Source: Pseudomonadota bacterium (GTDB lineage Bacteria; Desulfobacterota; Desulfobulbia; Desulfobulbales; Desulfocapsaceae). From it: a stretch of 42,495 nt of DNA. The notes beneath the pieces are model-generated. The model was not told where the DNA came from, did no database searches, and was given only the letters and a program-made list of their open reading frames with translations. The stretch's first letter is position 1. Every line of letters starts with the position of its first letter. Position numbers and translations under genes: made by a program. Positions 17,229-42,313 of the stretch are shown here, piece by piece. Location of the stretch: contig JAHJNL010000004.1 of the NCBI GenBank assembly GCA_018820855.1, positions 1 to 42,495 on the forward strand, in the 5' to 3' direction.

Positions 17229-18806
17229 ATGATGGCAAATCACTCCATCACCATTCTTACCATTGAGGACGACCGACTGGTACGCAAGGCTATCGCCTCT
17301 TACCTGCAGGGACTTGGTCACTTAGTCCTCCAGGCTGGGGATGGGGCAGAAGGCCTGGAGATATTCCGGAGGGCACATCCTGATCTTATCCTCACCGATC
17401 TCCGCCTGCCGAAGATCGATGGCATGGAAGTGCTCTCTACTGTCCAGAAAGAATCCCCGGACACCCCTGTTATCATCGTTTCCGGTATGGGTACCCTGGA
17501 AGATGCCATTAAGGCTCTCAAACTTGGTGCCCGAGACTATGTAACCAAGCCGATTACTGACATGGCTCTGCTGGAGCATGCTGCTGCCCGTGCCCTGGAA
17601 CGAGTCAGACTGATCAAGGAAAACAGACGATATCAGTCCTTTCTTGAAGATGAGGTTCAGAAAAAAACCGCTGAATTACAGCAGGCCCAGAAACTCGAAG
17701 CCATCGGTACTCTGGCCGGCGGCATTGCTCATGACTTCAACAATATCCTTGCCGCCATCATGGGCTTTACCGATCTTGCTCTGCTGAAGACAGAAATGGA
17801 CTCTGAATTGACTGACTATCTGCATCAGGTACAAAAGGCCAGTCGTCGGGCAAAAGATCTGGTACTTCAGATCCTGACCTTCAGCCGCAAGAATGATACT
17901 GAGCGCCATCCGATTCAGGCTGCGCTCACCATCACAGAGACCCTGAAATTTACGCAGGCAACACTGCCGGCAACAGTCCGGATAACTCAGCACATCAATG
18001 CCCAACAGACAATGATCCTGGCTGACCCCACTGAAATTCATCAGATAATCACCAACCTCTGCACCAATGCCTTTCATGCCCTGCCCGACGAAAAGGGGAC
18101 AATTACAGTAACCCTTGATAACCTCACCATCACCGCAGACGATTTGCACAAACACCCCCAATTGCCAGGCGGGGATTATCTGCAGCTTACGGTCAGCGAT
18201 GATGGATGCGGCATGGACCTGGCAACCCAGAGCGCTATTTTCGACCCCTTTTTCACCACCAAGGAAAAGGGACAAGGTACCGGCCTTGGTCTTTCCGTAG
18301 TGCATGGCATCGTTACTGACTGGGGCGGCACCATCAAAGTCAAGAGTGAACCGGGCAAGGGCTCGACGTTCACGCTCCTCTTTCCGGTGACAGAGGCCGT
18401 CGCCAGAGAAACCGAGGCTGTCGTCTCCCTTCCCGGCGGCAGTGAGCGTATCCTTTTCATTGACGATGAAGAGGACCTGCGATTACTGGCCGAGCGAATG
18501 CTTACCTATCTCGGCTACTCTGTCATCTGCTGTTCTTCCGCTCAGGAGGCCTTGAAAAAAATGAGAGGAGACACTGCCGGTTTTGACCTGGTCATCACTG
18601 ACCAATCCATGCCGCAGATGCCAGGAACGGAGCTGGCAAAGGAGCTGCTCTCCATCAGTCCGGGACTGCCGATCCTCCTCTGCACCGGCTACAGTTCCAT
18701 GGTCGATAACGACAAGGCACTGACCATGGGAATCAGAGGTTTTCTTCTGAAACCCCTTTCCATCAGTAAAATGGCCCGGGAGATACGGACCATTCTTGAT
18801 AAGTAG
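17229..18806 (+). CDS. Hybrid histidine kinase, REC-HisKA-HATPase-REC
   Basis: The protein has 525 residues and no membrane segment. An N-terminal receiver (residues 7-125; phosphoacceptor D57 in LILTDLRLP) is followed by a coiled coil and a HisKA domain with H168 in GGIAHDFNN. The HATPase domain has its G-box (KGQGTGLGLSVV), and a C-terminal receiver holds D458 (VITDQSMP). This is a soluble phosphorelay node with a receiver at each end. It receives phosphate from another kinase, or is gated by one, and hands it on. It heads the plus-strand signalling genes, 124 bases ahead of the heme-sensor kinase. Confidence 0.9.
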   Translation: MMANHSITILTIEDDRLVRKAIASYLQGLGHLVLQAGDGAEGLEIFRRAHPDLILTDLRLPKIDGMEVLSTVQKESPDTPVIIVSGMGTLEDAIKALKLGARDYVTKPITDMALLEHAAARALERVRLIKENRRYQSFLEDEVQKKTAELQQAQKLEAIGTLAGGIAHDFNNILAAIMGFTDLALLKTEMDSELTDYLHQVQKASRRAKDLVLQILTFSRKNDTERHPIQAALTITETLKFTQATLPATVRITQHINAQQTMILADPTEIHQIITNLCTNAFHALPDEKGTITVTLDNLTITADDLHKHPQLPGGDYLQLTVSDDGCGMDLATQSAIFDPFFTTKEKGQGTGLGLSVVHGIVTDWGGTIKVKSEPGKGSTFTLLFPVTEAVARETEAVVSLPGGSERILFIDDEEDLRLLAERMLTYLGYSVICCSSAQEALKKMRGDTAGFDLVITDQSMPQMPGTELAKELLSISPGLPILLCTGYSSMVDNDKALTMGIRGFLLKPLSISKMAREIRTILDK

Positions 18807-18930
18807 CAGAACAAGTGCTCAAAAATATGAAATTAACCATCAGCTTTTTGCTGTCAGGTATGGGCTTAATGCAGAAGAAGCCTGAAGAGAGAAGTGGGGA
18901 TATGAAAAGCACAGCAAAAAAAAAGGTGTC

Positions 18931-20877
18931 ATGAAGACAGTGAGTCCATCTCAAAAATCGCCTTTTCTCATGAAACGCAACACCCTCATTCTCGTAGCAG
19001 GATGGACGGCAGTGATTGTCATGGGGGCGTGCTGGCATCTGTTCGAAGCGTACCAGAACACGTTGCAATCGGCATATATTGAGGCGACACGCTCATTTGA
19101 AAAGGATCAGGTATACCGCCGCTGGGCCGCCGGTCACGGTGGTGTTTATGTGCCGGTGAGCAAAGAGACGCCACCCAATCCCTACCTGTCGCACATAAAA
19201 AATCGTGACATCACCACCACATCCGGGCAAAAACTGACCCTGGTCAATCCGGCCTACATGACACGCCAGGCATATGAGATAGGACACAAATACTACGGCC
19301 ATCAGAACCATATCACCAGCCTCAAGCCTATTCGCCCTGAAAATGGACCGGATAGCTGGGAGACCAAAGCGCTGCAGGCAGTTGAACAGGGCAAGACCGA
19401 GGTAAGCGAATTTGCAAAAATCGGGGGCACTGACTACCTGCGCCTGATGCGACCGCTGAGAACCGAGCACAGCTGTCTGAAATGCCACGCGACACAAGGC
19501 TACAAGGAGGGCGATCTGCGTGGCGGCATCAGCGTCTCTGTGCCTATGGAGCCGCGGTGGAAACTTATGTCTCTTCATGCGACTGCCATCTTTATCATGA
19601 GCTACGGCCTCGTATGGCTCCTGGGTCTGGCCGGTTTCGGGGTCTATGCCTGGCAAACAGGACAGCAAATCCGGCTGCGCGATCAGGCAGAGGAAGCGCT
19701 GCAAAATGCATTAACAGAATACGCCGATCTCTACAATAACGCCCTGGATATGTTTGTCTCGGCGGATGCCGACACAACACAGGTTATTCGATGCAACCAG
19801 ACCCTGCTCACAACCCTGGGCTACAGCAGAGAAGAAATCATCGGCCGCCCGGTTTTTGATCTCTACCACCCCGACTGTCTGGATGAGGTCAAAAACAACA
19901 TCTTCCCCACCTTTTACAGAACAGGAACAATTACAAACAGAGAACTGAAGCTGCAATGCAAGGATGGCTCTCCCCTGTCAGTAACCCTTGACCTCTCGGC
20001 CTTTCGAGACAAAGAAGGAAGGATCATACAAAGCAGATCTGTTCTGCATGACATCAGCGACAGAAAGTGGCTGCAGGAACAGCTCATTATCAATGAGAAG
20101 ATGGCTACCATCGCCGGGCTTGCCGCAGGTGTTGCCCATGAAATAAACACTCCGCTTTCAGGAATTCTCCAATCAATCCAGCTTATTGAGATGGGACTTG
20201 ACCCGGAGCAGGAAGAGAATCGGCAGCTGGCTGCCAAATGCGGCATAGAACTAGCCAATGTCCGGAGCTACCTGCAGAAAAAAGAACTGGATTTCTTCCT
20301 CAACGGCATCAAAGAATCTGCCACCACGGCAGCACATATTATCTCTGACCTGCTCCAGTTCAGCCGCCCCCGTATAAGTGAACGCGCTGCTGTCAGTCTG
20401 ACTGATCTCATCGACCATTCCATTGAACTCGCCAAGGCCGATTATTCGCTGAAAAAGGAGTACAATATACTCAATGTAGAGTTCATACGAGAATACAGTC
20501 CAGACCTGCCGGAAGTCAACTGCATGGCCATGGAAATAGAACAGGTTCTTATCAATCTCATCAAAAACAGCTGCCAGGCAATGGCAGAAAATGGAGGCCC
20601 GACAGCCCCGCACATTATTGTCCGTACAAAACAACGCGATGAGATGGCAGTGATTGAGGTGGAAGACAATGGCCCGGGTATAGAGGAAAAGATCAGCCTC
20701 CAGATCTTTGATCCATTTTTCACTACCAAGGATATCGGCAAAGGAACCGGCCTTGGTCTTACCGTATCCTATTCCATTATCTGTGACAAGCATGGTGGAA
20801 CCTTGCAGCTAACGAGCCTGCCGGATAAAGGAACCAAGACCATCATCGAACTGCCGATCACAGGAGCAAGGAAATAA
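18931..20877 (+). CDS. Membrane sensor histidine kinase with DUF3365-type heme domain and PAS
   Basis: The protein has 648 residues. Transmembrane helices at about 17-37 and 212-236 enclose a periplasmic domain that ends in a c-type heme site, C182-x2-C185-H186 ([10 protein letters not shown]). This pattern with [11 protein letters not shown] after it is typical of the DUF3365 (Tll0287-like) domain. In the cytoplasm follow a PAS domain (about 250-370), HisKA ([11 protein letters not shown]) and HATPase ([11 protein letters not shown]). The heme should sense redox state, oxygen or a small gas ligand in the periplasm; that is inference. Five bases separate it from the next kinase gene, so the two are co-transcribed. 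Confidence 0.9.
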
Positions 20878-20882
20878 CAAAA

Positions 20883-22601
20883 ATGAGTAAGCGCGCAGAG
20901 ACAATTCTGATTGCTGAAGATGATCCGCTTGTTCGTAAAACAACAGCTCATTATCTGACAGGAAAGGGCTATACCATCCTGGAAGCCAGTAACGGCAGCG
21001 AGGCCTTGCAGTTGTTCAGAGAAGAAAAACCGAATATCCTTCTTACTGACCTGCGCATGCCGAGACTGGACGGTATGCAGCTTATCCAGACAGTGGTGCA
21101 GGAAGATCCGCATATGCCGGTGATTATTTTCTCCGGCATGGGAACCATGGGAGATGTCATCGAGGCCCTGCGCGCCGGGGCCTGGGACTATCTCACCAAA
21201 CCGATAACGGATCTGGATATTGTCGCCCACAGCATCAACAAGGCCTTGGAACGTGCCAAACATCTTCGCCAGGAAAAATTATACCAGGCCAGTCTTGAAC
21301 AGGAGGTACAGAAACGGACCCTCGAGCTGCAGCAGCAGAACAGGCAGCTCGAGCAGGAGATACAAGAACGTAAGGTCCAGGAAGCCCTGGTTCTCCATGC
21401 AAAGCAGGAATGGGAACGCACCATTGACTCCATGCCTGATATGGTAGCCATTATTGATATTGAACACACCATTGTTCGTATGAATAAGACCATGCTCAAT
21501 CAACTCGGCAAGTCCTACAATGAACTGTTGAGTACAAAGTGCTTTCTTTGTGCCCATGACAGAGAGGAGCCGCCCGAGTACTGCCCGCACAGCAAACTCC
21601 TTCAGGACGGCAAGCCTCACCGGGCCGAAATCTACGAAGAACGTCTGGGCGGGCACTGCGAGATCAGTGTGACTCCTTACTATGACCCTGACGGGTCTCT
21701 TCTCGGCTCCGTCCACATTGCCAGGAATATCAATGCACAAAAAAAGGCTGCGCTGGAAAAGGAGAAACTGCAGTCCCAGCTTCTTCATGCTCAGAAACTT
21801 GAATCAGTGGGACAACTGGCTGCCGGTATTGCCCATGAAATAAACACCCCCACCCAGTTCATCGGCACCAATATCGATTTTTTCGATGAAACGTGTCGGG
21901 ATATCAGTGAGTTCATGACACAGATTCAGGAAATTGCAAAGAAGGCCACGCCGGAAATCAGTGCTGCAATAAACAAGGCCCTGGAAGAGCTGGATTGGGC
22001 CTACCTGACCGAAGAGATCCCCCTGGCCATCAGCCAATCGTATGAGGGCGTGAAACGTGTCAGATCCATTGTCCAGGCCATGAAGGAATTCTCCCATCCG
22101 GGCAGCAAGACTAAGAAAGAGCTGGATCTTAATCAAATTATCAATACTACAGTGACGGTAGCCCGTAACGAATGGAAATACGTTGCCGACATGGAGCTCG
22201 ATCTGGATCCGCAACTGCCGAAAATTCCGCTGTTGGCAGATGAAATGGGCCAGGTTGTCCTCAATATGCTGGTCAATGCGGCCCATGCCATAGCTGAAAA
22301 ACTAGGTGATAACCCGGCGGGAGCCAAGGGCACAATATCCATCATCACCCAAAAGACTGCAAAAGGGGTAGAACTGCGTATGCATGACACTGGAGCCGGC
22401 ATGCCTGGTCATGTGCAACTCCGAATCTTTGATCCTTTTTACACCACCAAAAAAGTGGGTAAAGGTACAGGCCAGGGTCTGGCAATAAGCCACGATGTGG
22501 TTGTTGACAAACACCAGGGAACCATTGAGGTTGAATCAACATTGGATGAAGGCACAACGTTCATTATCCAACTGCCTTTGCAAGACGGAGAAAGCAAATG
22601 A
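20883..22601 (+). CDS. REC-PAS-histidine kinase
   Basis: The protein has 572 residues. A receiver (D56 in LLTDLRMP) leads into a coiled coil (about 130-180), then a PAS domain (about 180-290) with a cysteine-rich insert (CFLCAHDREEPPEYCPH). HisKA (AAGIAHEINTPTQ) and HATPase (GKGTGQGLAIS) follow. The receiver-first layout suggests it is driven by an upstream kinase, probably the heme sensor encoded just before. It overlaps the following REC-HDOD gene by four bases (ATGA). No DNA-binding domain is present. Confidence 0.9.
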   Translation: MSKRAETILIAEDDPLVRKTTAHYLTGKGYTILEASNGSEALQLFREEKPNILLTDLRMPRLDGMQLIQTVVQEDPHMPVIIFSGMGTMGDVIEALRAGAWDYLTKPITDLDIVAHSINKALERAKHLRQEKLYQASLEQEVQKRTLELQQQNRQLEQEIQERKVQEALVLHAKQEWERTIDSMPDMVAIIDIEHTIVRMNKTMLNQLGKSYNELLSTKCFLCAHDREEPPEYCPHSKLLQDGKPHRAEIYEERLGGHCEISVTPYYDPDGSLLGSVHIARNINAQKKAALEKEKLQSQLLHAQKLESVGQLAAGIAHEINTPTQFIGTNIDFFDETCRDISEFMTQIQEIAKKATPEISAAINKALEELDWAYLTEEIPLAISQSYEGVKRVRSIVQAMKEFSHPGSKTKKELDLNQIINTTVTVARNEWKYVADMELDLDPQLPKIPLLADEMGQVVLNMLVNAAHAIAEKLGDNPAGAKGTISIITQKTAKGVELRMHDTGAGMPGHVQLRIFDPFYTTKKVGKGTGQGLAISHDVVVDKHQGTIEVESTLDEGTTFIIQLPLQDGESK

Positions 22602-23815
22602 GAAAAAAAAGGATCCTTTTTGTAGACGATGAAACCAATATCCTTTCAGGATTAAAACGCATGCTGCGTTCAATGCGGCAAGAATTTGATCTGCAATTTG
22701 CCGAGAGTGGCAAAGAGGCGCTTGAGATTATGGAAAGTACCGAGTTTGACGTGGTGGTTTCCGATATGCGTATGCCTGGCATGGATGGGGCAACATTGCT
22801 CACAGAAATACAGAAACTCCACCCCTATTCCATCCGGATCATGCTCACAGGACAGGCCGATGAAAAATCGATACTGCGCACAGTGGGCGTTGTCCATCAG
22901 TTTCTTGCCAAACCGTGTGAATCGGAGCATCTTAAGGCTATACTGCTACGGGCAAGTGCCTTGCATGAGCTCATCTCCCAGGATGCACTGAAAAAAATCA
23001 TTACCCAGCTTGGTACCTTGCCCAGTGTGCCTGAGGTCTATGCAAAACTGCGCAAGGCCATGGCAAACCCAGAGATCGCCATAGCAGAAGTTGCAAAAAT
23101 TATAGAAGAAGATATGGCTATGAGCGCCAAGGTTCTGCAGTTGGTAAATTCAGCTTTTTTCGGTCTATGCCAAAAGGTAGAGAGTCCGGCCCGTGCCGTG
23201 AATTTTTTAGGACTTGACACTGTTAAAAGCCTGGTTCTGGGCGTTGGGGCTTTCTCTCAGACCAAGGCCTCCTCAAAGATCTTTCCTATCAAACAACTCT
23301 GGTCACACAGCCTAACAGTAGGAACCTTTGCCAAGAAGATTGCCTTGAGTGAGTCGGACGACAAGGAACTTATTGATTACTGTTTTCTGGCCGGCCTCCT
23401 CCATGACATCGGCAAATTGGTATTAGTTGCGCAAATGGAGGATAAGTATGAACAGGCAGTCCTGCTTGCCAGAAAGAACAATATCTGCCTGCGTACAGCT
23501 GAAAAGGAGATCTTTGATACGGTTCATGGGGATATCGGAGCATATCTGATGGGCTTATGGGGAATGCCCGGACCGGTAGTTGAGGGTATTGGCTTTCACC
23601 ATCGTCTGGATAACTACCCAAACAGGCAATTTAACCCTGCACTTGCTGTGCATGTAGCCAATGCCATTTATTATGAGAACCGGCCTGATGAAGTTATTGG
23701 TGCTCCCCATGAAATAGCCATGGTCCACTTGCAGGCCATGGGACTAGATGATAAAATAGACCACTGGCGTGAACTTTGTGCTGAATCATTTGAACAGGAT
23801 AACAAAGATGACTGA
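22598..23815 (+). CDS. Response regulator with HDOD output domain
   Basis: The protein has 405 residues. The receiver (residues 4-125, D56 in VVSDMRMPGMDG) is followed by an HDOD domain at about 135-335 (LPSVPEVYAKL, then VLQLVNSAFFGL and a LAGLLHDIGKLVL helix that keeps an HD pair). HDOD modules act mainly through protein contacts in bacterial signalling. It is translationally coupled on both sides: ATGA overlap with the kinase gene before it and an eight-base overlap with the gene after it. It is the probable output of the adjacent kinases. Confidence 0.9.
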   Translation: MRKKRILFVDDETNILSGLKRMLRSMRQEFDLQFAESGKEALEIMESTEFDVVVSDMRMPGMDGATLLTEIQKLHPYSIRIMLTGQADEKSILRTVGVVHQFLAKPCESEHLKAILLRASALHELISQDALKKIITQLGTLPSVPEVYAKLRKAMANPEIAIAEVAKIIEEDMAMSAKVLQLVNSAFFGLCQKVESPARAVNFLGLDTVKSLVLGVGAFSQTKASSKIFPIKQLWSHSLTVGTFAKKIALSESDDKELIDYCFLAGLLHDIGKLVLVAQMEDKYEQAVLLARKNNICLRTAEKEIFDTVHGDIGAYLMGLWGMPGPVVEGIGFHHRLDNYPNRQFNPALAVHVANAIYYENRPDEVIGAPHEIAMVHLQAMGLDDKIDHWRELCAESFEQDNKDD

Positions 23816-24938
23816 TAAAATTTTACTGGTCGATGACGAACCTAACGTTCTGCAATCCATGCAGCGTCAGTTACGAAAACGTTTTAATATAACAACGGCG
23901 GAAAGTGGTAATGACGCCCTGGCAAAATTAAAAGAGCAGGGGCCTTTTGCCGTTATTATTTCAGATATGCGCATGCCTGGCATGGATGGGGTACAACTTC
24001 TCAGCAGGGTGAAGTCCACTTTTCCTGATACGGTTCGCATTATGCTTACCGGTAATGCTGATCAGGAAACAGCTACTGAAGCAGTGAACGTAGGTCAGAT
24101 CTTTCGCTTCCTGAATAAACCCTGTTCTACTGCCGTGTTAGCAACATCCATTGCCCTTGCAGTAAGACAGTACAACCTTATTACCGCCGAAAAAGAGCTC
24201 CTGAACAAGACCTTGAAAGGCAGTATCTCTGTTATGGCCGAATTGCTCAGCCTTGCCAATGCCACTGCCTTCAGCAGTGGATACCGTATCAAATCCATGG
24301 TTAAGCACATTGCCCAAGAACTCCAGTTAACCAATCCCTGGCAATATGAAGTTGCAGCGTTGATGTCTCAAATAGGATGCATCACCCTGCCCACTGATAT
24401 TTTACACAAACTCCATGCAGGCATCACACTCTCGGCGGAAGAACAGGAGATGTATGAAAATCATCCAAATGTTGGCAGCAAGCTCATCCGCAAGATTCCC
24501 AGGCTGGAAAAAGTCGCGGCAATGATCGAACACCAGCTTCGCTCTTTTGACTGTTGTGACAAGGAAGATTCTCTGGAAGAAGAGATTACCCTTGGTGCCG
24601 AAACCCTGAAGGCGGTCATAGAATACGACCTGTTGCGTCAGCAGGATCTGGGGCATCTGCAGGCCCTTAAGCGTATGCGAAAACGATCGGGTGAATACAA
24701 CCCCAACATACTGAATATCCTGGAATTGCACAGGCCAAAGGAGGTGCATGCCACAATCAAAAACCTGAGTTTTAAAGATATCATTCCCGGCATGATTGCG
24801 GTTGAAGATGTTTTTGCCAAGAATGGCACTATGCTTATTCCGAAAAATCAGGAAATCACCTGGCCTGTCATTCAAAGTCTGACAAATTTTGAAAAGCACA
24901 TTGGTATTATCGAGCCAATACGCGTACGCACAACTTAA
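23808..24938 (+). CDS. Response regulator with degenerate HD domain
   Basis: The protein has 376 residues from ATG 23808. The start is chosen because the receiver begins immediately (MTDKILLVDDEP) and the codon overlaps the previous stop. The receiver has D53. Residues about 150-270 have the layout of an HD-GYP domain (HIAQEL, then VAALMSQIGCITLP, then EMYENHPNVGSKLI), but the metal ligands are lost: QIG replaces HDIG, and the HHE...GYP segment is replaced by EHQLRSFD. The C-terminal 60 residues (NLSFKDIIPGMIAVEDVF) match the tail seen on HD-type regulators. Phosphodiesterase activity is therefore unlikely; a binding role is inferred. Confidence 0.85.
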   Translation: MTDKILLVDDEPNVLQSMQRQLRKRFNITTAESGNDALAKLKEQGPFAVIISDMRMPGMDGVQLLSRVKSTFPDTVRIMLTGNADQETATEAVNVGQIFRFLNKPCSTAVLATSIALAVRQYNLITAEKELLNKTLKGSISVMAELLSLANATAFSSGYRIKSMVKHIAQELQLTNPWQYEVAALMSQIGCITLPTDILHKLHAGITLSAEEQEMYENHPNVGSKLIRKIPRLEKVAAMIEHQLRSFDCCDKEDSLEEEITLGAETLKAVIEYDLLRQQDLGHLQALKRMRKRSGEYNPNILNILELHRPKEVHATIKNLSFKDIIPGMIAVEDVFAKNGTMLIPKNQEITWPVIQSLTNFEKHIGIIEPIRVRTT

Positions 24939-25056
24939 TTCAAAAACAGAAAAAGCAGGTGTGCGGTTTGGTTTGCCCAAAAAGCTAAAAGCATCTCAGA
25001 CAGGGACGGTCTCAAAAAATAACAAACGGGCCACACGATTTTTTCAAAGAATAATC

Positions 25057-27768
25057 TTATGTTTTATCCAGCACTTCGCGGACGGCCTCAAGAAGCTCGT
25101 CTCCATGTATCGGTTTGAAAACGTATTTTTTTATGCCCATGGACAGGGCCTTTTCTTCGGAAACGATATCACTGTGTCCGGTACACATGATAATAGGCAG
25201 GGACGGTTTGATCTCCAGCACCGCTTTGGCCAGTTCTGCACCCGTGAGCCTTGGCATGGTCTGGTCGGTGATGAGCATATCAAACGTATCCGGCTGACTG
25301 CGGAACTTCTCCAGGGCCTCCATGCTGTCTGTAACTGCAGTAACCTGATACCCTCTGCTTTCCAAACGTTTTTTGTTGATTTTCACCAGAAGCAGTTCAT
25401 CGTCCACCATCAATATTTTCTCGTTGCCAGTGGTTTGCCCCCCCCTCTTTTTCTCCTCTGCAGCACTTGATTGAACAGTTGATTCTGCCGTTATCGGTAA
25501 ATAAACGGAAAAAAGCGTCCCCTTTCCGACACTGCTTTCCACCTCAATAAATCCGTTACAATCCTCGACAGCACCGTGGACAACAGCAAGCCCCAGACCG
25601 GTTCCTCTCCCCACTTCTTTGGTGGTGAAATAGGGTTCAAAAATTCGATCAATGATGGATGGCTCCAAGCCACATCCGTCATCCCTGACAGTCAAAACGA
25701 CAAAGGGTCCAGTCGGCACGCCCCGCTCACTGAGGATTTCCCCGCCACTTTTTCCCCTTTTCTGTAAGCCCACACTCAAGGTCCCCTTCTGCTCATTCAT
25801 GGCATGCAGGCCATTGGTACAGAGATTGACAACAATCTGATGGATGACGGTAGGGTCAGCCATTATCATTCCACAATCAGGGTCAACATCTTCTCTTATC
25901 TCAACCGTTGCCGGCATGGTCGCATGCAGCATTTTCAGTGCTTCCCGGACAACCAGATGAGGGTGGATGACCTGTTTTTCAATGCCAGCCTGACAACTGA
26001 AGGTAAGAATCTGCCTGACAAGATTTGTTGCCCGTTTCCCAGCTGCAAGGACTTCTGCAATGTTCTTTCCAATCTCACTCTCTGCCGAAACATCCTCTCG
26101 AATAAATTCGGCATATCCTAAAATTGCAGAAAGAATATTATTAAAATCATGGGCAATGCCACCGGCCATTGTGCCTATTGCCTCCATTTTCTGAGATTGG
26201 GCCAATTTCTTTTCAAGATTTTTCAAGTCAGATATATCCTTGCCAACGCGGGCAATATATTCAAGTTCACCCAGATCATCAAACACCGGAGCAGCCGTGA
26301 CAAGAAAGGTCTTTCCCAGTTTCCCATAATACATCTCTCGGCTACAGGGCACTAGGCTCTTTTTGGTCTCCACAAGAGGACACCCCGGACAGGGCTCTTC
26401 TGAGCCATGAAAGAGTTCATAGCAGTGATACCCGATAATCTCATCACAGGGGGAAGCAAGCATGGCACATGCTGCCTGGTTAGCCTTGACTATTCGCAGA
26501 TCAGTATCATGGAGAGTGACGATATCGGAAAACGAATTGAAGGTTCGATCCCACTGTTTTTCACTTTTGCGAATAGCCCGTTCCACCTGCTTTCGCTCAG
26601 TAACATCATGGGCAATGCCACTAATGAAGAGCAACTTTCCCTGCTCATCATAAGAAAAACTTACGGTCCACAACATATCATGGACAACGCCTGTTTCCAG
26701 GTTAACCAGTCGGTTTTCAATCTTTGACTGAATTATCTGTTTATTGAAACAATTTTCACACCAGACTGTTGTCGTTTCAAGATCATCCGGATGGATAAAG
26801 TCAAAAACATTTTTCCCTACTAGTTTTCCAGGATCATGACCCAATATTTCCTTACCCATGTGGTTGACGTAGAGCAGGTTTCTATCAGCATCCACCTGGA
26901 TTATCAGATCAATTGTTCCTTCCACCAGTTCCAGATATCTCTGCTCCATTTTCTTACGTTGCGTTATATCTAAGACAATGGCTGCAAAAACAGGCCTGGC
27001 CCGATACTCTGTTTTCTGGAGATGCACCTCTGCAGGATAGGTCGATCCATCCTTACGCCTATGAACAGTCTCATAAACCAGCTTTTCTTTTTGCCCAATT
27101 TTTAATGAGGCGACTCTTTGCGTAAAAGAAGAATTAGCAATTTCGGGCTTGATATCCATGGGAGTCATTTCCATGAATTCTGACAGGGAGTACCCCATAT
27201 TTGACCGAGCCCCTTCATTTACGAACAAATATTTATAGTTTTCCGCATCAAAGAGGTAAATTTCATTGAGTGATTTTTCGATGATCTGAGTTAAATTTTT
27301 TTCCCGGTTGAGCGACTGACGTAATTTGACTGTTCGCTCTTCCACCATGGATTCAAGACGTTCGTGATAGTTGCGCAATTCCTCTTCATTCTGTTTCCGT
27401 TTCAGTGCCAGTTTCACTGTGGCCGGAAGGATTTTGAGGTAATTACCTCCAGGATCTTTGATGAGATAATCATAGGCACCTAACTTCATAGCTTCCACAG
27501 CCACTTCTTCATTACCCGTCCCGGTTGTTACAATGACCGGGAGTTCTTTGAACAGGTCAAAGAGTTCAAAAGACACCCCGTCTCCAAGCCAATAATCCGA
27601 AATAACGATATCGAAACTGGTTGATTTGAGAATTTTTTCTGCCTCAGCAATGGACCCGGCAATGGTGTAATCATAGGGCAGTTTCTTCTTTTTGACATAC
27701 CTCTCAAACGCCATCTGGTCGACCTTGTCATCCTCAACCAGAAGAAGACGGATTGCTTTGTCTTTCAC
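25057..27768 (-). CDS. Large hybrid histidine kinase, REC-PAS-PAS-PAS-HisKA-HATPase-REC
   Basis: The protein has about 903 residues and is soluble. A receiver (D58 in VISDYWLG) precedes a coiled coil and three PAS domains (about 175-290, 295-415 and 420-535). The third PAS carries a cysteine motif, CYELFHGSEEPCPGCP. HisKA (AGGIAHDFNNILS), HATPase (GRGTGLGLAVV) and a C-terminal receiver (D835 in LITDQTMP) follow. I use the GTG at 27768, preceded by AGAGGG, in preference to the in-frame GTG at 27813. It lies 89 bases behind the single-domain regulator on the same strand and meets the plus-strand set tail to tail, with a 118-base gap that shows no clear terminator. Confidence 0.88.
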   Translation of the reverse strand: MKDKAIRLLLVEDDKVDQMAFERYVKKKKLPYDYTIAGSIAEAEKILKSTSFDIVISDYWLGDGVSFELFDLFKELPVIVTTGTGNEEVAVEAMKLGAYDYLIKDPGGNYLKILPATVKLALKRKQNEEELRNYHERLESMVEERTVKLRQSLNREKNLTQIIEKSLNEIYLFDAENYKYLFVNEGARSNMGYSLSEFMEMTPMDIKPEIANSSFTQRVASLKIGQKEKLVYETVHRRKDGSTYPAEVHLQKTEYRARPVFAAIVLDITQRKKMEQRYLELVEGTIDLIIQVDADRNLLYVNHMGKEILGHDPGKLVGKNVFDFIHPDDLETTTVWCENCFNKQIIQSKIENRLVNLETGVVHDMLWTVSFSYDEQGKLLFISGIAHDVTERKQVERAIRKSEKQWDRTFNSFSDIVTLHDTDLRIVKANQAACAMLASPCDEIIGYHCYELFHGSEEPCPGCPLVETKKSLVPCSREMYYGKLGKTFLVTAAPVFDDLGELEYIARVGKDISDLKNLEKKLAQSQKMEAIGTMAGGIAHDFNNILSAILGYAEFIREDVSAESEIGKNIAEVLAAGKRATNLVRQILTFSCQAGIEKQVIHPHLVVREALKMLHATMPATVEIREDVDPDCGMIMADPTVIHQIVVNLCTNGLHAMNEQKGTLSVGLQKRGKSGGEILSERGVPTGPFVVLTVRDDGCGLEPSIIDRIFEPYFTTKEVGRGTGLGLAVVHGAVEDCNGFIEVESSVGKGTLFSVYLPITAESTVQSSAAEEKKRGGQTTGNEKILMVDDELLLVKINKKRLESRGYQVTAVTDSMEALEKFRSQPDTFDMLITDQTMPRLTGAELAKAVLEIKPSLPIIMCTGHSDIVSEEKALSMGIKKYVFKPIHGDELLEAVREVLDKT

Positions 27769-27857
27769 GAATTTCCCTCTTTTTTGATCGAAACCAACTC
27801 CATTTGATAGCACATTATTAAGTTAGGTTGCGGTCCAACATTTGCGGACGTATCTGC

Positions 27858-28271
27858 TCATTCCGGCAGCTCACTCAAGGTCCAGTACAGATCAATTGTT
27901 TTTACCACCTCAACAAATTTCAGGTAATCGACAGGTTTGACCATATACCCGGCAACCCCTAATTTGAAGCTGTCAACCTTATCCTGATCTTCTCTTGATG
28001 TGGTGAGAACAATCACGGGAATTTTTTGCAACATGTCATCTTTTTTGACTATATGCAAAAATTCAATACCATTCATTCTGGGCATATTGAGATCAAGCAA
28101 TATAATACCCGGATTTTCATTTTCAGGATTTTCCAGAAAGGCCAAGGCCTTTTCGCCGTCATCCACAATATCCAGGCGGTTGGTGACATTGATTTCCTTC
28201 AAGGCCCGTTTAACGGTCATGGCATCGACCTGATCGTCTTCCACCAAAAGAATGGGTTTAGAGCTTCTCAT
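27858..28271 (-). CDS. Single-domain response regulator (Rcp1-like)
   Basis: The protein has 137 residues and is a lone receiver domain: acidic pair at E11-D13, D60 in ILLDLNMPRMNG, T85-region VIVLTTS, and lysine in MVKPVDYLKF. The long asparagine- and glutamate-rich loop before the phosphorylation site is typical of the Rcp1 group that pairs with phytochrome-style kinases. The ATG at 28271 follows AAAGGAG and lies inside the last codons of the kinase gene upstream (14-base overlap), so that kinase is the evident partner. It has no output domain and would act as a phosphate shuttle or by protein contact. Confidence 0.92.
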   Translation of the reverse strand: MRSSKPILLVEDDQVDAMTVKRALKEINVTNRLDIVDDGEKALAFLENPENENPGIILLDLNMPRMNGIEFLHIVKKDDMLQKIPVIVLTTSREDQDKVDSFKLGVAGYMVKPVDYLKFVEVVKTIDLYWTLSELPE

Positions 28272-30300
28272 CTTTTTCTCCTTTTTTGGGTAACGTAAAA
28301 AAGAATGCAGCCCCTTTTCCTGATTCCGACTCCACCCAGACAGAACCACCATAGAGGGCAACAATTTTTTTAACCAGAGTCAGACCGATTCCGGTGCTTT
28401 CGTGTTCATCACGGGGCATTAGTGTCTGAAATATCTGGAATATCTTCTCATGATATTTTTTATCAATTCCTGGGCCGTTATCAGATACACTGAATTTCCA
28501 GAATGCTCCTTCGTCGACACAGCCCACCTTGATAATCCCTTCATCCTTATCCATATATTTTATGGCATTTCCGAGAAGGTTCTGAAAGACCTGCTCCATC
28601 CGGATAGCATTTTTGAAGACCACTGGCAATTTATTTTCAAAGAGTATCTGAATAGTATCCCGCGGTGCGATGCTGTCAATCACCTCCTCAACAAGGAGGT
28701 TCAGATCCAAGCGTTTTTCCTTTTCTTTAATTCGACCAATACGCGAATAGCGCAGAATACCATCGATAAGTCCATCCATACGTTTGACTCGTTGCAGGAT
28801 TAACTGCATCTGCTCTTTCCCTTCTGCATCAAACCCTGCGGAATAATCTTCAGAAAGCCAGTGAGTGAGTTGACTGATTGCCCTGAGCGGTGCTTTGAGA
28901 TCATGGGATACCACATAGGCAAATTCCTTCAGCTCCTTGTTTGCAGCATCATATTCACTGTTTACTTTCTGGAGCTCATCTATGGATTTTTCTACTTTCC
29001 CGGTCTGTTCCTGCAGTTCTTCAGTTCGTTTTTGAACCAGTTCCTCCAACTGATTGCGATATTGCGACAATTCAGCTTCTGCCTGCATGCGCTGAGTCAC
29101 ATCAGACAGTGAAACAAAGACCTTCGACCATGTATCTTCATAGCCGGGTACCACTGTCAGTCCCAATATCACTTGGATTTCATTGCCCTGAAGCGTTTTA
29201 TTGACAGTCTGTAACTCAAAATTATATTTTCCTTCAGCCAGACAAATAAGTTCTTCTCTAAATGCCTCATAGGACTTCTGTCCGAACACCGTATCCAGAT
29301 TTCCATAAAGCAGTTCCTTACTGCCAGCCCCTAATATTTTGAGGGTTTCCCGGTTTACATCTATAATCTTAATCAGCTGTGCGCATGTATCGACGGATTC
29401 CGGATGGCTTATAAAATAGGACCTAAAATCAGTAATACCGGCAGAACGCAGTTGATCAATGTATTTCCTGACAGCCGAAAAGTCTTCTTCCCATAACGAA
29501 ATGGGCGCCTCTTCAAATAACCCTCGATAGCGACTTTCACTTTTCCGCAGTGACGCCTCCACCTGCTTACGTTCAATGATTTCCCCCTGAAGCTGACGAT
29601 AGGATGCCTGCAACGTCATTCGCATTTCATTGATAGCCTTTACAAGTATATCAAACTCATCTTTTATCCTGTTATGTTGCTTACGCTTCAGAACAAAAGG
29701 TTTTTCCAAGGTATGCAGATCCAAGGCATTGGCATAACTTGCCAATGCCTGAAGATGTCTGGCAACTAACATATAGAAAACAAAAAAGATAAATCCTGAG
29801 ACCATAAATGTTTTGACACCTTGTGAAACGATGATAACGATGGCTTTTTGTGTCAGGCGATCATAAATATTTTCCAAGGTGTAAACGATATGAAGCCTTC
29901 CCAACGGAATCGTTTTGTTGCCATAGGTATAAGACAAAAGAAACTCTTTTTTTACCACATGTGCAGCTTGAATCTCGCCGGCTTTTGCGACCATTCCATT
30001 TTCATACACCACGTCGACATACTGCATATCAGGCAATTTCAGTATCCCTTCAAGTTGGATCTGCAAGAGTTCCGTATCAGAGAGCCAGAGGCTGTTGATA
30101 ATACCGTCAAGGTAGCTAACTTCAATCTGGGTGACGCTTTTTTCTATGGAATCAAGGCCGTACCTGTAGTCACCATAGAGCTGAATCACTATCAAAACCA
30201 ACGTGACAGTAGAACTGAACAGTAAAATATATAAGATGAATTTTCGAACAACACTCCGTCCTAAAACAAACTTTTTGTTTATATTTTCATCAAGTTGCAT
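28258..30300 (-). CDS. Membrane PAS sensor histidine kinase paired with a periplasmic binding protein
   Basis: The protein has 680 residues. Transmembrane helices at about 20-43 and 156-180 flank a periplasmic domain of about 110 residues (WLSDTELLQIQLEGI, then MQYVDVVYENG), similar in style to the sensor regions of LuxQ/CHASE-like kinases. A HAMP-like linker, a PAS region (about 265-410) and a long coiled coil follow. HisKA is of the phytochrome type (FAYVVSHDLKAPLRAI), and the HATPase ends STGIGLTLVKKIVALYGG. Its start is only six bases behind the stop of the solute-binding gene, and its end overlaps the response regulator gene. The three genes form one sensing operon. Confidence 0.9.
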   Translation of the reverse strand: MQLDENINKKFVLGRSVVRKFILYILLFSSTVTLVLIVIQLYGDYRYGLDSIEKSVTQIEVSYLDGIINSLWLSDTELLQIQLEGILKLPDMQYVDVVYENGMVAKAGEIQAAHVVKKEFLLSYTYGNKTIPLGRLHIVYTLENIYDRLTQKAIVIIVSQGVKTFMVSGFIFFVFYMLVARHLQALASYANALDLHTLEKPFVLKRKQHNRIKDEFDILVKAINEMRMTLQASYRQLQGEIIERKQVEASLRKSESRYRGLFEEAPISLWEEDFSAVRKYIDQLRSAGITDFRSYFISHPESVDTCAQLIKIIDVNRETLKILGAGSKELLYGNLDTVFGQKSYEAFREELICLAEGKYNFELQTVNKTLQGNEIQVILGLTVVPGYEDTWSKVFVSLSDVTQRMQAEAELSQYRNQLEELVQKRTEELQEQTGKVEKSIDELQKVNSEYDAANKELKEFAYVVSHDLKAPLRAISQLTHWLSEDYSAGFDAEGKEQMQLILQRVKRMDGLIDGILRYSRIGRIKEKEKRLDLNLLVEEVIDSIAPRDTIQILFENKLPVVFKNAIRMEQVFQNLLGNAIKYMDKDEGIIKVGCVDEGAFWKFSVSDNGPGIDKKYHEKIFQIFQTLMPRDEHESTGIGLTLVKKIVALYGGSVWVESESGKGAAFFFTLPKKGEKDEKL

Positions 30301-30306
30301 GTTATT

Positions 30307-31008
30307 TTATTGAAATTCCCGATGAACCAGATTTTGGTACGTGCCATCTTTTTTCATTTCTTGAAGAGTTCTTACAATTTCAGGAATCAAGTCTTCATGT
30401 TTTTTGTGAATATACAAAAACATATCACTGACATCTATGGGCGGCTGCAATGCCTTGATATCGGAATAACCAAGTTTTTTTAACACTTCCAGCCCAGTGC
30501 TTTGCCCAAAAACACCAACATCTGCCCGCTCTTTTTCCAGAAATGTGAAGAGAAGTTCTTCATTTTTAATAACGGTCTGCTCCTTGGCCTTTTTCAGCTC
30601 CCGCTCGCAATTTCTCCAACCGTTGACATAAACCACATGGTATTCCAGAAGGCTTTCCCAGCCGTTGACTGGAATATCTGTATGTTTTGAAAAAGCCACA
30701 ATTCGATTCACAGCAATTTTCTCCGGCACTTTGATAAGATTCGGATATGCCAGTGTTATGCCGTCTGTTCTTAGAAAATTTCCGTCTTCTGTGCCGTTAT
30801 TGGCGTTTTCCAGTGACCTCTTGGACGGCATGGAAACAATTTCAAGCACTATCCCCATTCGTTTAAAGCATTCTGTAAGCACTCCATTCATGGCCTGAGC
30901 GCGACTATGCTCCTGATTGTCAGCCGTTGTAAATGTAAGTGTTGTCTGAGCCATGACAGCAGATGATAAAACAAGAACCAACATGATTAAAGATGCTAAT
31001 AAATTCAC
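30307..31008 (-). CDS. Periplasmic solute-binding protein (SBP_bac_3-like), probably sensory
   Basis: The protein has 233 residues from GTG 31008, which has an almost perfect Shine-Dalgarno (AAAGGAGGTG) three bases upstream; a longer in-frame reading to 31065 lacks this. A signal peptide (cleavage after VMA) precedes a type-II periplasmic binding fold: LTFTTADNQEHSR, MNGVLTECFKRMGI, and near the end LFLYIHKKHEDLIPEIVRTL-like text ending in DGTYQNLV. No permease or ATPase gene is nearby, and the next gene is a membrane sensor kinase. I infer that it presents a ligand to that kinase. The ligand (amino acid or small organic acid by family) is unknown. Confidence 0.85.
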   Translation of the reverse strand: MNLLASLIMLVLVLSSAVMAQTTLTFTTADNQEHSRAQAMNGVLTECFKRMGIVLEIVSMPSKRSLENANNGTEDGNFLRTDGITLAYPNLIKVPEKIAVNRIVAFSKHTDIPVNGWESLLEYHVVYVNGWRNCERELKKAKEQTVIKNEELLFTFLEKERADVGVFGQSTGLEVLKKLGYSDIKALQPPIDVSDMFLYIHKKHEDLIPEIVRTLQEMKKDGTYQNLVHREFQ

Positions 31009-31610
31009 AGCACCTCCTTTATTTAATATGTATACGCCTTCTGCCGGATTGTTTTTGATCATCATAAGAGGAGGGACCAGGAGAATGAATTTGATCCAAG
31101 GCCATGTTTACCTGCAACCTGTCAATGACAATTTAGGCGGCAATACCCATACAGGAAATCCCAAATAAAGATATTTTTTTCCACCACAGCTGTGCCCTGT
31201 TTACAGAAAGACCTTCATTGGCAGATTTCATGTGAACCACATACTGATCATACGACATTTCCCATCGTTAACAAAACTTATTATCACAGAATCCACCCAA
31301 TGAATGAGTTATGGAATCCCTCCCGTTGTTGTCCCTTTCTTTCTATACCACCAGGCAATGGAGCAATCAACAGTCATACCAGGATAACATGCCGACGACT
31401 CATTACGTGTTAAACCTAATCCAACAGGTGGAGCGCAGATTCTCTACCGACTGAGATCAACAAAATTGAAAGGTTTGCTGTCGTGTTGACAGCAAAACAT
31501 CGTGAGAGACAGTCTGCAAATGATGAAGGAAGGGCAAGAGAAGAGTTACGCCTTGCAGGACACTCTCTTGCTTCGCATGAATCAGTATCGGGCAGTCACA
31601 GGATAAGGAA
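31009..31610. other. 602-base gene-free region
   Basis: No reading frame here has a domain, good start or sensible composition. The left end should hold the promoter for the binding protein-kinase-regulator operon on the minus strand, but I could not place it. The stretch contains a CACAGCTGTG palindrome (31185-31194) next to a T-run, and a perfect 9-bp inverted repeat at 31474-31496 downstream of the lipid-type operon. Confidence 0.6.
31474..31496. repeat. Perfect 9-bp inverted repeat, possible weak terminator
   Basis: TTTGCTGTC (31474-31482) and GACAGCAAA (31488-31496) enclose a five-base loop. It lies about 115 bases past the last gene of the minus-strand lipid-type operon. On that strand the stem is followed by a T-rich but interrupted stretch, so it may be a weak terminator or a protein-binding site. 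Confidence 0.6.
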
Positions 31611-40216: not shown

Positions 40217-42313
40217 TCAGTAGGCTATGGCCATAAAGGCATCAACCACATCAGGATCAAACATCTTGCCTGCCTGCTCTTCAATATAAATCAACACATC
40301 CTCCCGAGCCCATCCCTGCCGGTAGGGACGCTGTGAAATAAGCGCATCATACACATCAGCCACAGCAAGGATGCGAGCGTTAATGTCTATATCACTGCCT
40401 GACAGACCATAAGGATAACCTTTCCCATCAAACCGTTCATGGTGCTGAATCACAATCGGCAAGATGTTTTTATACACATCAATAGGTTGGAGAATTTTCT
40501 CACCAATGAGCGGATGACTCCTGACTGTATCGAACTCATCATCATCAAGTTTCTCTGGTTTATCCAGAATGGTCAGCGGAATCCCTATCTTACCGATATC
40601 GTGGAGCAACCCCCCACGATAAAGTAACGCAATGTTTTTCGAGTCAAAGCCCATGACGCTGGCAACCTTTACAGAAAGTTCAGCAACTCTTTCAGAATGC
40701 CCTGCTGTCCATTCCGATTTTGCATCCACCGTACGGGAAAGAGCTTCGACCGTGCCGATGTTCAACAGTTCAAGTTCCTGGACAAGACTGGCATTCGCCA
40801 AGGCAATAGCTAACAGATCCGCTATTTGCCTTGCCTGCTTGATTTCTTCTTCAACATTTGCCTGATCAACCATATTCAGGCCCATAATAACCGCGCCAAC
40901 AAGTTTTTGTTCGATAAACAAGGGGAGAGACAGAAAAATGTTACTCGTTGCAACAAATGAGGAAAGAAAGCGGGGAATCTGCTCTACAGAATCAAGTAAC
41001 GTATACTCGTCATTAGCAAAAATATTTTCTCTCTCCCCCAATGTAATATCCGTATTTTCACTATCAGGAGTTGCCCGCCCTCCCTTCTCCAAAATGGATA
41101 ATGCCAATGTCTCTGGATTTTCTGTATTGATACGGGCATACAATATCACCTCGGAGTTGAAGAAATCACTCATCATTCGCAGGGCCGTAGCAACAACAAT
41201 TGATGGATCGAGGGAAGAGAGGATGGCGCGGTTGATCTGATCAATAACGGCAAGAGCATTAAACTGATTATTCAACCGGGCAGACATGGAGTTAAAGGAA
41301 ACCGCCAGTTCTTCAAATTCGTCGCCACTATCCACATCAACTTGAGTTGTGAAATCTTTATTGGCAATACGTTGTGTACCCTCCTTCAATTTATTAAGCG
41401 GTGCAAGAGTCTTTCGGAGAGTGTACATGGAAAGGAAGAGAACCGCCCACAGAAAAAGAAGACTAACAAGCGGAAATACCTGCCTAAACTCCGTCATGGG
41501 AGCCAGTATATCTTTTTTTGACTGGCTCAAAATGATGGTCCAGAGCGGAGCATCAAACTCTGACTGCAAAAACAACGTCCATGAACTTGCAAGATACAAA
41601 GAGCCTTCCCGCTCATACTCAAACAGTCGCTTGTCAGAGGCATGCAAAGGACGAGAAACCAGCCGATGTCTCTCTGCTGGTGCCGCATAGGTCAGTATCA
41701 CCGGCCTGTTTGAATCATCATAGACTGCCAACTCCGTCATAGCAGGCAATAACATTACCGAACCAATCCCCCACAAAAAAGAGGTATTGATTTCGGCAAG
41801 TAAAAAACCGTCCTGCGGCTGCTTTTTGTCTAAGGCCACAAGCATATATACCGGAGAAACAAATTCACTGAACTGGCCAATGAGGATCTGACTTTTGGGG
41901 TTTCCTGGGCTGTACTGCACAGCAATATCTTTCAGTTTTTGTGTAGCCAGGAAACCAGCAATTGGAGCATATTCGCCGTTAGGAACGACGAGATATACAC
42001 TGTCAAACAAAGAAGATACATTCTCTTTCAATTCATTGTCAAGAGCAGGTCTTTGGTGGTTGTCGGTAAGGGATAGCTTTATTGCACAGATACTCAATAA
42101 ATTTTCCATTCGAGCCAGCCGCTCAAACAGTGAAAGTCCATACGATTTTGTCTCGTTCTGAAGACGCAACAGGCTCTGCTCTTTCATTTGCCCAATAACC
42201 CTCTGATAGGACAATAGCAGCAAAATGCCTGTGGGAATAAAGGCACAAAAGAGAAAAAGGAAAAAAAACCGTTTCCCGAGTTTACTCTTAAAAAAAGACG
42301 CACCTAGTTCCAT
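40217..42313 (-). CDS. Membrane HD-GYP protein (c-di-GMP phosphodiesterase type) with HAMP and GAF
   Basis: The protein has 698 residues. Transmembrane helices at about 14-34 and 280-300 bound a large periplasmic sensor region, dCache-like by length. A HAMP linker (about 300-350), a GAF domain (about 370-510) and an HD-GYP domain follow. The catalytic motifs are intact: H571-D572 in HDIGKIGIP, H624-H625-E626, and G632-Y633-P634. It should hydrolyse c-di-GMP in response to a periplasmic signal, opposite to the HDOD-GGDEF protein at 5.4-6.9 kb. Its start is 12 bases behind the pseudopilin stop, suggesting co-transcription with that gene. Confidence 0.9.
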   Translation of the reverse strand: MELGASFFKSKLGKRFFFLFLFCAFIPTGILLLLSYQRVIGQMKEQSLLRLQNETKSYGLSLFERLARMENLLSICAIKLSLTDNHQRPALDNELKENVSSLFDSVYLVVPNGEYAPIAGFLATQKLKDIAVQYSPGNPKSQILIGQFSEFVSPVYMLVALDKKQPQDGFLLAEINTSFLWGIGSVMLLPAMTELAVYDDSNRPVILTYAAPAERHRLVSRPLHASDKRLFEYEREGSLYLASSWTLFLQSEFDAPLWTIILSQSKKDILAPMTEFRQVFPLVSLLFLWAVLFLSMYTLRKTLAPLNKLKEGTQRIANKDFTTQVDVDSGDEFEELAVSFNSMSARLNNQFNALAVIDQINRAILSSLDPSIVVATALRMMSDFFNSEVILYARINTENPETLALSILEKGGRATPDSENTDITLGERENIFANDEYTLLDSVEQIPRFLSSFVATSNIFLSLPLFIEQKLVGAVIMGLNMVDQANVEEEIKQARQIADLLAIALANASLVQELELLNIGTVEALSRTVDAKSEWTAGHSERVAELSVKVASVMGFDSKNIALLYRGGLLHDIGKIGIPLTILDKPEKLDDDEFDTVRSHPLIGEKILQPIDVYKNILPIVIQHHERFDGKGYPYGLSGSDIDINARILAVADVYDALISQRPYRQGWAREDVLIYIEEQAGKMFDPDVVDAFMAIAY

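Follow-up and report, generated by a model that had tools for sequence, protein, structure and literature searches.

Two separate signalling systems appear to share an island in a Desulfocapsaceae genome, one of them centred on a recurrent kinase, REC-HDOD and pseudo-HD-GYP unit

Do signalling genes that lie side by side form one circuit? The question was raised by nine adjacent genes, g1 to g9, in contig JAHJNL010000004.1 (assembly GCA_018820855.1) of a Desulfobacterota bacterium of the family Desulfocapsaceae, deposited as Pseudomonadota bacterium. The whole stretch analysed, positions 1 to 42,495 of the forward strand, is referred to as the window; it corresponds to one complete contig of the draft genome, which totals 4.82 Mb. 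The genes are arranged in two convergent sets, set 1 (g1 to g5, forward strand) and set 2 (g9-g8-g7-g6, reverse strand), and an initial annotation made from the letters alone had suggested that they form one branched phosphorelay. Comparison with other genomes led us to a different reading, to which we assign a probability of about 0.55. The island would hold two separate systems, and g3, g4 and g5 would be the core output unit of the first one, shared by several kinases of the family of g3, referred to here as HKc.

The two sets were compared across 56 genomes (the host genome and 55 relatives), where set 2 was traced by g6 and g8, not by g7 or g9. A match to g8 at E ≤ 1e-80 was present in three genomes, the host, G018 and G006, and these were also the only ones with a full-length g6; all three carry set 1 alongside. 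Matches to g4 at E ≤ 1e-60 were found in 12 of the 56 genomes. The locus of G008 includes g1, g3, g4 and g5 and lacks both g2 and set 2. That of G002, also devoid of set 2, includes g1, a g2-type kinase in which GAF/PAS domains stand where the heme sensor would be, and two g3-type kinases, of which one is interrupted by a stop and the other has a phosphonate-type binding domain, besides g4 and g5. An ortholog of g1 shares the locus with g4-g5 in G018, G006, G002 and G008. The presence of set 1 without set 2 in G008 and G002 suggests that set 1 is older and that set 2 is a local addition. The proposed link between the sets thus fared poorly, as they proved to a large extent separable in the relatives, with set 2 present in 2 of the 55 and set 1 also found without it. 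Judged by gene content, the island is composed of two neighbouring systems that were inherited separately. In G002 the stop-split g3-type kinase (L022, 4477-5622, + strand) adjoins the second HKc kinase, as if a replacement were under way.

The proposed unit consists of a REC-PAS-HKc kinase (g3, 20883..22601, +), a response regulator with a receiver (REC) and an HDOD domain (g4, 22598..23815, +) and a REC-pseudo-HD-GYP regulator (g5, 23808..24938, +), a type referred to here as HDx and matched in Pfam as REC-HD_5. The g3 and g4 genes overlap by 4 bases and g4 and g5 by 8. The g4 protein was assigned as an HDOD regulator because it matches PF08668 (191.7 bits) and PF00072 (79.9 bits) in a single chain. 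The genome_contigs collection was scanned with g5 homologues and the 80 loci obtained were annotated by similarity; loci lacking a g5 match that reached residue 330, mostly with the receiver only, were excluded from the counts. The set of 40 loci with at least 32% identity to g5 comprised the window, seven relatives picked via g4 (L020-L023 and L026-L028, which have HDOD by construction) and 32 loci from the scan, after removal of L033, a duplicate of L027. The counts that follow refer to those 32. A full REC-HDOD gene was present in 27 of them, or 28 if a split one (L034) is included, and an HKc kinase, with at least 40% identity to the g3 kinase, in 25, several of the contigs being short. 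The common gene order was HKc, REC-HDOD, REC-HDx, frequently with overlaps, and order or strand differed in L026, L028, L032, L035, L036 and L054.

According to the record titles, many of which are those of metagenome bins, the hosts of the 40 loci include Desulfobulbaceae, other Desulfobacterota, Planctomycetota, Gamma-, Beta- and Alphaproteobacteria, Verrucomicrobia/Lentisphaerae, Myxococcales, Actinobacteria, a Latescibacteria and a Leptolinea bin. The sensor parts of 33 HKc kinases were diverse: PAS was the commonest model (25), followed by receivers (13), phosphonate-binding domains (3) and Tll0287 (2), with isolated occurrences of Cache types, CHASE4, MHYT, GAF and EAL/GGDEF. By homology, HKc, REC-HDOD and REC-HDx travel together across phyla while the sensors vary freely. 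The distance matrices of g3-, g4- and g5-type proteins were correlated (r 0.82-0.88 over 30 loci; 0.63-0.68 in the 26 loci left when four close relatives were removed; none of 2000 permutations in either case), though any co-inherited genes would yield this result. Ten more distant REC-HD loci (at most 30% identity) had neither a full-length REC-HDOD match nor a kinase at 40% identity or above; this group is uneven, the HD pair being kept in eight and reading QD in L062 and AQ in L075. Among the open-access papers listed by the literature searches, none described a kinase/REC-HDOD/REC-pseudo-HD-GYP unit in its title or abstract opening.

HKc and HDx were also found together at the level of whole genomes. 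At cut-offs of E ≤ 7e-62 for HKc and E ≤ 1e-60 for HDx, which were chosen after the gap was visible, HKc was present in 10 of the 56 genomes and HDx in precisely those 10. The best matches outside them were at 41% identity for HKc (E 1.5e-53, G043) and 31% for HDx (E 4e-26, G039), and REC-HDOD was found in the same 10 genomes plus, in more distant form, G016 and G046. A class-wide run over 257 genomes was then carried out with cut-offs fixed beforehand, informed by the 56-genome run. HDx was detected in 64 genomes and HKc in 72, with 63 having both, one (G166) HDx alone and nine HKc alone (Fisher p 6e-49, a value that ignores shared ancestry); 53 of the 63 lie outside the first 56. HKc numbers in this run are lower bounds, since they include the best nine candidates per genome. 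In the 63 genomes there were at least 217 HKc places and 77 HDx places, and HKc was the more numerous in 47, equal in 16 and fewer in none. In G033, g4, g5 and three HKc genes occupy five separate places, so that linkage alone is insufficient to explain the co-occurrence.

The host genome follows this pattern. It has one HDx place, one REC-HDOD place (from the best 150 of 182 g4 candidates scored; g4 was the only place with REC plus HDOD among the matches listed) and HKc at eight places, made up of g3, six further kinases whose domain content is complete and a shortened one. The six, named C15, C104, C52, C83, C6 and C47, are encoded by open reading frames of 355-871 amino acids. By Pfam their sensors are HAMP-PAS (C15 and C83), PAS (C104 and C47) and dCache (C6), with none recognized in C52. 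No REC-HDOD or HDx gene was found beside any of them within the stretches taken, although an unrelated REC gene lies no more than a few kb from C47 and from C52. Six positions in the DHp domain, and contact positions in the receiver, were taken to be partner-determining, as reportedly established by Skerker, Capra and co-workers. The six DHp positions read TQ[FY][TSG]NF in all seven HKc kinases of the host, compared with TSGQSL in g2 and NAAGFL in g1; g6 and g8 also differ. Unit kinases of other lineages mostly read TQ[FY]DNF or TQ[FY]TNF. The shortened HKc protein, C19 (L148, 6141-6650, + strand), has 169 amino acids and an ATPase domain only, and is possibly a decaying kinase.

As to the output, the catalytic HD of g5 reads SQ and the GYP motif is gone, so the protein lacks the motifs of an HD-GYP phosphodiesterase. 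The catalytic HD pair was missing in 40 of 40 sequences, that is, g5 and its 39 homologues with at least 32% identity. A fold search with the whole of g5 was swamped by receiver domains and, therefore, the HD part was predicted alone (residues 138-376, mean predicted local distance difference test score 88.8). Its best PDB chains were HD-GYP proteins, 3tm8_B (Z 17.4, root-mean-square deviation 2.4, 154 aligned) and 4r8z_A (Z 15.2, deviation 3.3, 174 aligned), whereas HDOD structures gave Z of about 9-11; the C-terminal beta part (model residues ~197-239) is barely covered by these matches. As modelled, g5 keeps an HD-GYP fold without the catalytic residues, and it should not hydrolyse cyclic-di-GMP. 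REC-HD_5 proteins (L032, L036 and L044) and a REC-GGDEF-EAL protein (L053) lie near homologous units. Elsewhere in the window, an HDOD-GGDEF fusion with an intact GGEEF (5381-6886, − strand) suggests that HDOD can couple directly to a diguanylate cyclase, and a HAMP-HD-GYP protein (40217-42313, − strand) with intact HDIGK and HHERFDGKGYP is likely an active cyclic-di-GMP phosphodiesterase.

Candidate nitric oxide (NO) sensors were found on the input side. The g2 protein (18931..20877, +) is a Tll0287-like (c-heme Cache)-PAS-histidine kinase; it matches PF11845 with 77.2 bits (cut-off 24.1) and has a CXXCH motif, CLKCH, at residue 182, as do the sCache_heme/Tll0287 sensors. A 2026 preprint ascribes NO-sensor properties to a signalling-associated member of this group (Tll0287/sCache_heme, DUF3365; PMC12889525). 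By analogy, g2 is likely an NO-type periplasmic sensor, with heme attachment and NO binding predicted. Tll0287 domains bearing CXXCH were present in six loci (the window, L020, L021, L032, L040 and L049), those of L040 and L049 being part of an HKc kinase. In G008, a chemoreceptor with a Tll0287 heme domain (L163, 3401-5152, + strand) has as neighbours a kinase of g2 type and a hybrid kinase that resembles g6.

The second candidate is a FIST protein encoded directly upstream of the HKc kinase C52 in the host genome. It matched the NosP model NF041558 over nearly its full length (399.7 bits, E 1.2e-119), below the cut-off of 450 bits, and is thus NosP-like rather than an assigned NosP; the FIST proteins of L026 and L056 scored 397 and 378 bits against the same cut-off. 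FIST domains occur at 17 places in 13 of the 56 genomes, 16 of them above cut-off. At the 16 places inspected, which include the one in L026 (G032, C3:52398), an HKc kinase (at least 45% identity) adjoins only in the host genome, G023 and G032; with a Methyloversatilis metagenome-assembled genome (L056) the FIST-HKc pairs total four. REC-HDOD and REC-HDx adjoin the pair in G032 and L056, and neither was found beside the pairs of the host and G023. FIST and Cache domains have different folds. Going by domain matches, then, two different NO-type sensors recur with one output unit, in few loci.

The c-heme sensor of NO type in g2, the co-occurrence of HKc with HDx, the excess of HKc and the unlinked HKc kinases, including one with a NosP-like neighbour, together suggest that the unit is a many-to-one hub, probably responsive to NO, that acts by protein contacts, perhaps on cyclic-di-GMP enzymes. 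In such a hub, HKc kinases, both operon-borne and scattered, would phosphorylate the receivers of g4 and g5, which are paralogous (44% identical). One NO input would be the c-heme domain of g2, with the N-terminal receivers of g1 and g3 as its targets, and another the unlinked NosP-like/HKc pair of C52; Cache, HAMP and PAS sensors would supply further inputs. Phosphorylation of g4 and g5 would alter their protein contacts. A protein-contact output is favoured because no DNA-binding domain was recognized in the island and g5 is not expected to hydrolyse cyclic-di-GMP. Both the phosphotransfer by HKc kinases and the targets of g4 and g5 are inferred; by analogy with HnoD of Shewanella, cyclic-di-GMP enzymes would be the likeliest targets. 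Set 2 would have been added later and locally, and its kinases and receivers would pair among themselves.

A single branched phosphorelay that joins both convergent sets and is fed by a heme sensor and a binding protein found little support, and we consider it improbable. The sets do lie side by side in all three genomes where set 2 was found, and g1 (17229..18806, +; a REC-HisKA-HATPase-REC hybrid kinase of 525 amino acids) and g6 (25057..27774, −; a REC-PAS-PAS-PAS-HK-REC hybrid kinase) are related across the sets, with kinase cores 47% and C-terminal receivers 43% identical. Otherwise, the receivers group mostly within sets (g1N/g3N 52%, g4/g5 as above and, weakly, g6N/g7 31%), and g6N and g7 have residues different from those of g4 and g5 at the assumed contact positions. 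No HPt domain was matched in the nine island proteins (Pfam, E ≤ 0.01), the rest of the genome not having been searched for it. A hybrid kinase with receivers at both ends is indeed present in each set, as the initial annotation noted. It was considered as a link between the sets and rejected, because the type is so common that its presence in both carries little weight: g6 was matched at E ≤ 1e-120 in 33 of the 56 genomes, at up to seven places each, chiefly through its PAS-HK-REC half, and the C-terminal receivers of g1 and g6 belong to this widespread type. An operon of G011, a genome without g4 and g5, is relevant here (L162, 1316-10130, − strand). It encodes REC-HKb, g6-like (62% identity over the first 594 residues) and g1-like (55%) kinases followed by a REC-sigma54 activator. 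By uniting g1-, g2- and g6-like kinases the operon speaks for the phosphorelay, and it indicates that kinases of these types can belong together, in that operon with an output regulator of sigma54 type. These three kinase types are thus not bound to the HDOD/HDx pair as output and may have a role in transcription. If g1, g2 and g6 controlled transcription via a sigma54-type regulator encoded elsewhere in the genome, the absence of DNA-binding domains would be merely local; this possibility, which we judge unlikely as the G011 operon is one case alone, is compatible with the reading of g3-g4-g5 as a shared output.

A closer challenge to the shared unit is that g3-g4-g5 is an ordinary operon of one kinase and two regulators, that the scattered HKc kinases serve others and that the co-occurrence resulted from kinase duplication. 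An HKc kinase is nearby in most loci of g5 homologues, duplication too would make extra copies, and nine genomes have HKc without HDx. Nonetheless, the scattered kinases of the host have no such regulator nearby, their contact residues are the same, and the FIST-HKc pair that stands alone in the host adjoins REC-HDOD/HDx in G032 and L056; we therefore regard the ordinary operon as rather unlikely. Several observations weigh against the shared hub all the same. The nine genomes imply that part of the HKc kinases must work with other partners, and the co-occurrence statistics take no account of ancestry. Kinases at 33-41% identity to HKc occur in genomes without HDx, in eight of the ten distant REC-HD loci there is a kinase 34-40% identical to that of g3, and one of the ten, L068, holds an HDOD fragment at the contig end; the border of the unit is thus less sharp than the cut-offs suggest. 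The links to NO sensors are few (four FIST-HKc loci, six Tll0287 loci including the window), g2 is no fixed companion of the unit, being absent from the G008 locus, and it is analogy and gene neighbourhood that point to cyclic-di-GMP. An enzymatic output, with g4 or g5 active and g4 a weak phosphodiesterase through its retained HD residues, appears very improbable. The HDIGK of g4 is intact and the isolated HDOD domain of the REC-HDOD protein DVU0330 is reported to have had very low activity on bis(p-nitrophenyl) phosphate, but DVU0330 did not hydrolyse cyclic-di-GMP (PMC4114195), and the HD pair is absent from g5 and the 39 homologues considered.

Known systems resemble the unit in part. The NosR-NosP-NosK system of Burkholderia pseudomallei, with a degenerate REC-HD-GYP, an NO sensor and a cytosolic kinase, was compared through NCBIfam models; the HD-GYP regulator NosR is likewise reported to be degenerate (PMC12570481). 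NosR was the top NCBIfam match of g5 and g4 (245.2 and 148 bits), mainly over the receivers, and the host has a FIST-kinase pair of the NosP-NosK layout; pairs of this kind also adjoin the unit in two further lineages. However, assignment of g5 to the NosR family (NF053512) was rejected, as its score is below the 400-bit cut-off; four other HDx proteins scored 200-254 bits, whereas three more distant REC-HD homologues passed with 448-566. Unlike the NosR system, the unit has a REC-HDOD partner and several kinases, and the FIST pair of the host is unlinked. The HnoK/HnoS-HnoB/HnoC/HnoD network of Shewanella oneidensis has two kinases, one of them NO-responsive, that share regulators. Among these is HnoD, an inactive, degenerate HD-GYP protein, which by direct interaction suppresses an EAL enzyme (PMC6335343). 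Several kinases acting on shared regulators, including a degenerate HD-GYP, is what we propose here; in contrast, the passage on that network names no HDOD regulator, and HnoC is a transcription factor (PMC6335343). The HDOD protein MmoQ of Methylococcus capsulatus (3ljx, 3p3q) matches g4 at E 6e-19 and is named as a response regulator paired with a sensor kinase (MmoS-MmoQ; PMC7994243), but it is tied to the soluble methane monooxygenase locus. GsmR of Xanthomonas and DVU0330 of Desulfovibrio vulgaris are HDOD regulators like g4 and single REC-HDOD proteins; the passages on them report no phosphodiesterase activity for GsmR and do not include a kinase-HDOD-HDx unit in their description (PMC4114195). 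The sCache_heme (DUF3365/Tll0287) sensors have both the domain and the CXXCH motif in common with g2, where the domain is fused to a kinase and NO binding is predicted.

The gene content of the island was defined by open reading frames and Pfam profiles (E ≤ 0.01) of the window proteins. Set 2 is completed by g7 (27858..28283, −), a single-domain receiver of 141 amino acids, g8 (28258..30300, −), a CHASE5-histidine kinase, and g9 (30307..31065, −), a periplasmic binding protein that resembles family 3. This analysis bore out five histidine kinases, eight receivers and HDOD and HD-like outputs, as well as the lack of a helix-turn-helix or other DNA-binding model in the nine proteins, save a sub-threshold FleQ match that coincides with the C-terminal receiver of g1. 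The count of nine genes held, but g9 encodes a binding protein, not a signalling protein, and its reading frame ends at 31065 and not at 31008. Similarly, the heme sensor was recovered in g2, while the family-3 match of g9 (SBP_bac_3) was below the Pfam cut-off (21.8 against 26.4 bits). The HisKA match of g3 is also under its cut-off (18.7 against 26.9 bits), and the phospho-accepting histidine of the DHp domain is present in all five kinases. Most genes of a set lie close to one another: the gap between g2 and g3 is 5 bases and g7 and g8 overlap by 26. The convergent ends of the two sets are separated by 118 bases, and a search of 24850-25150 for promoter- or terminator-like sites gave none. 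The island is dense in signalling domains, though the host genome is signalling-rich (118 HisKA matches and at least 151 receiver matches). With the domain numbers of this genome, eight receivers within 11.1 kb were reached in 0 of 2000 random placements, and HisKA matches within 11.3 kb numbered four in 24% of placements and five in 2%, a test inflated by the counting of domains, in which two-receiver proteins count twice. In both closest relatives a kinase-less CHASE-PAS sensor gene follows g9 (L020, 16659-18200, −; L021, 16890-18356, −); it survives in the window merely as a short remnant of its start (31112..31180, −; 23 residues, 65% identity, E 9e-4 against the whole window).

In textbook biology, response regulators mostly work as one kinase, one regulator and DNA binding. 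The unit is a variant of known two-component signalling and probably a shared output of several kinases. We put forward only tentatively that it represents a widespread many-to-one design, undescribed in the open-access papers searched, in which an HKc family with interchangeable sensors, two NO-sensor types among them, would act on an obligate non-enzymatic pair of HDOD and pseudo-HD-GYP proteins as a protein-binding switch on cyclic-di-GMP enzymes. A dense signalling island need not equal one circuit. HDOD and pseudo-HD-GYP regulators are poorly understood outputs and, if the proposed reading is true, it would give them a family of partner kinases and NO as their likely signal.

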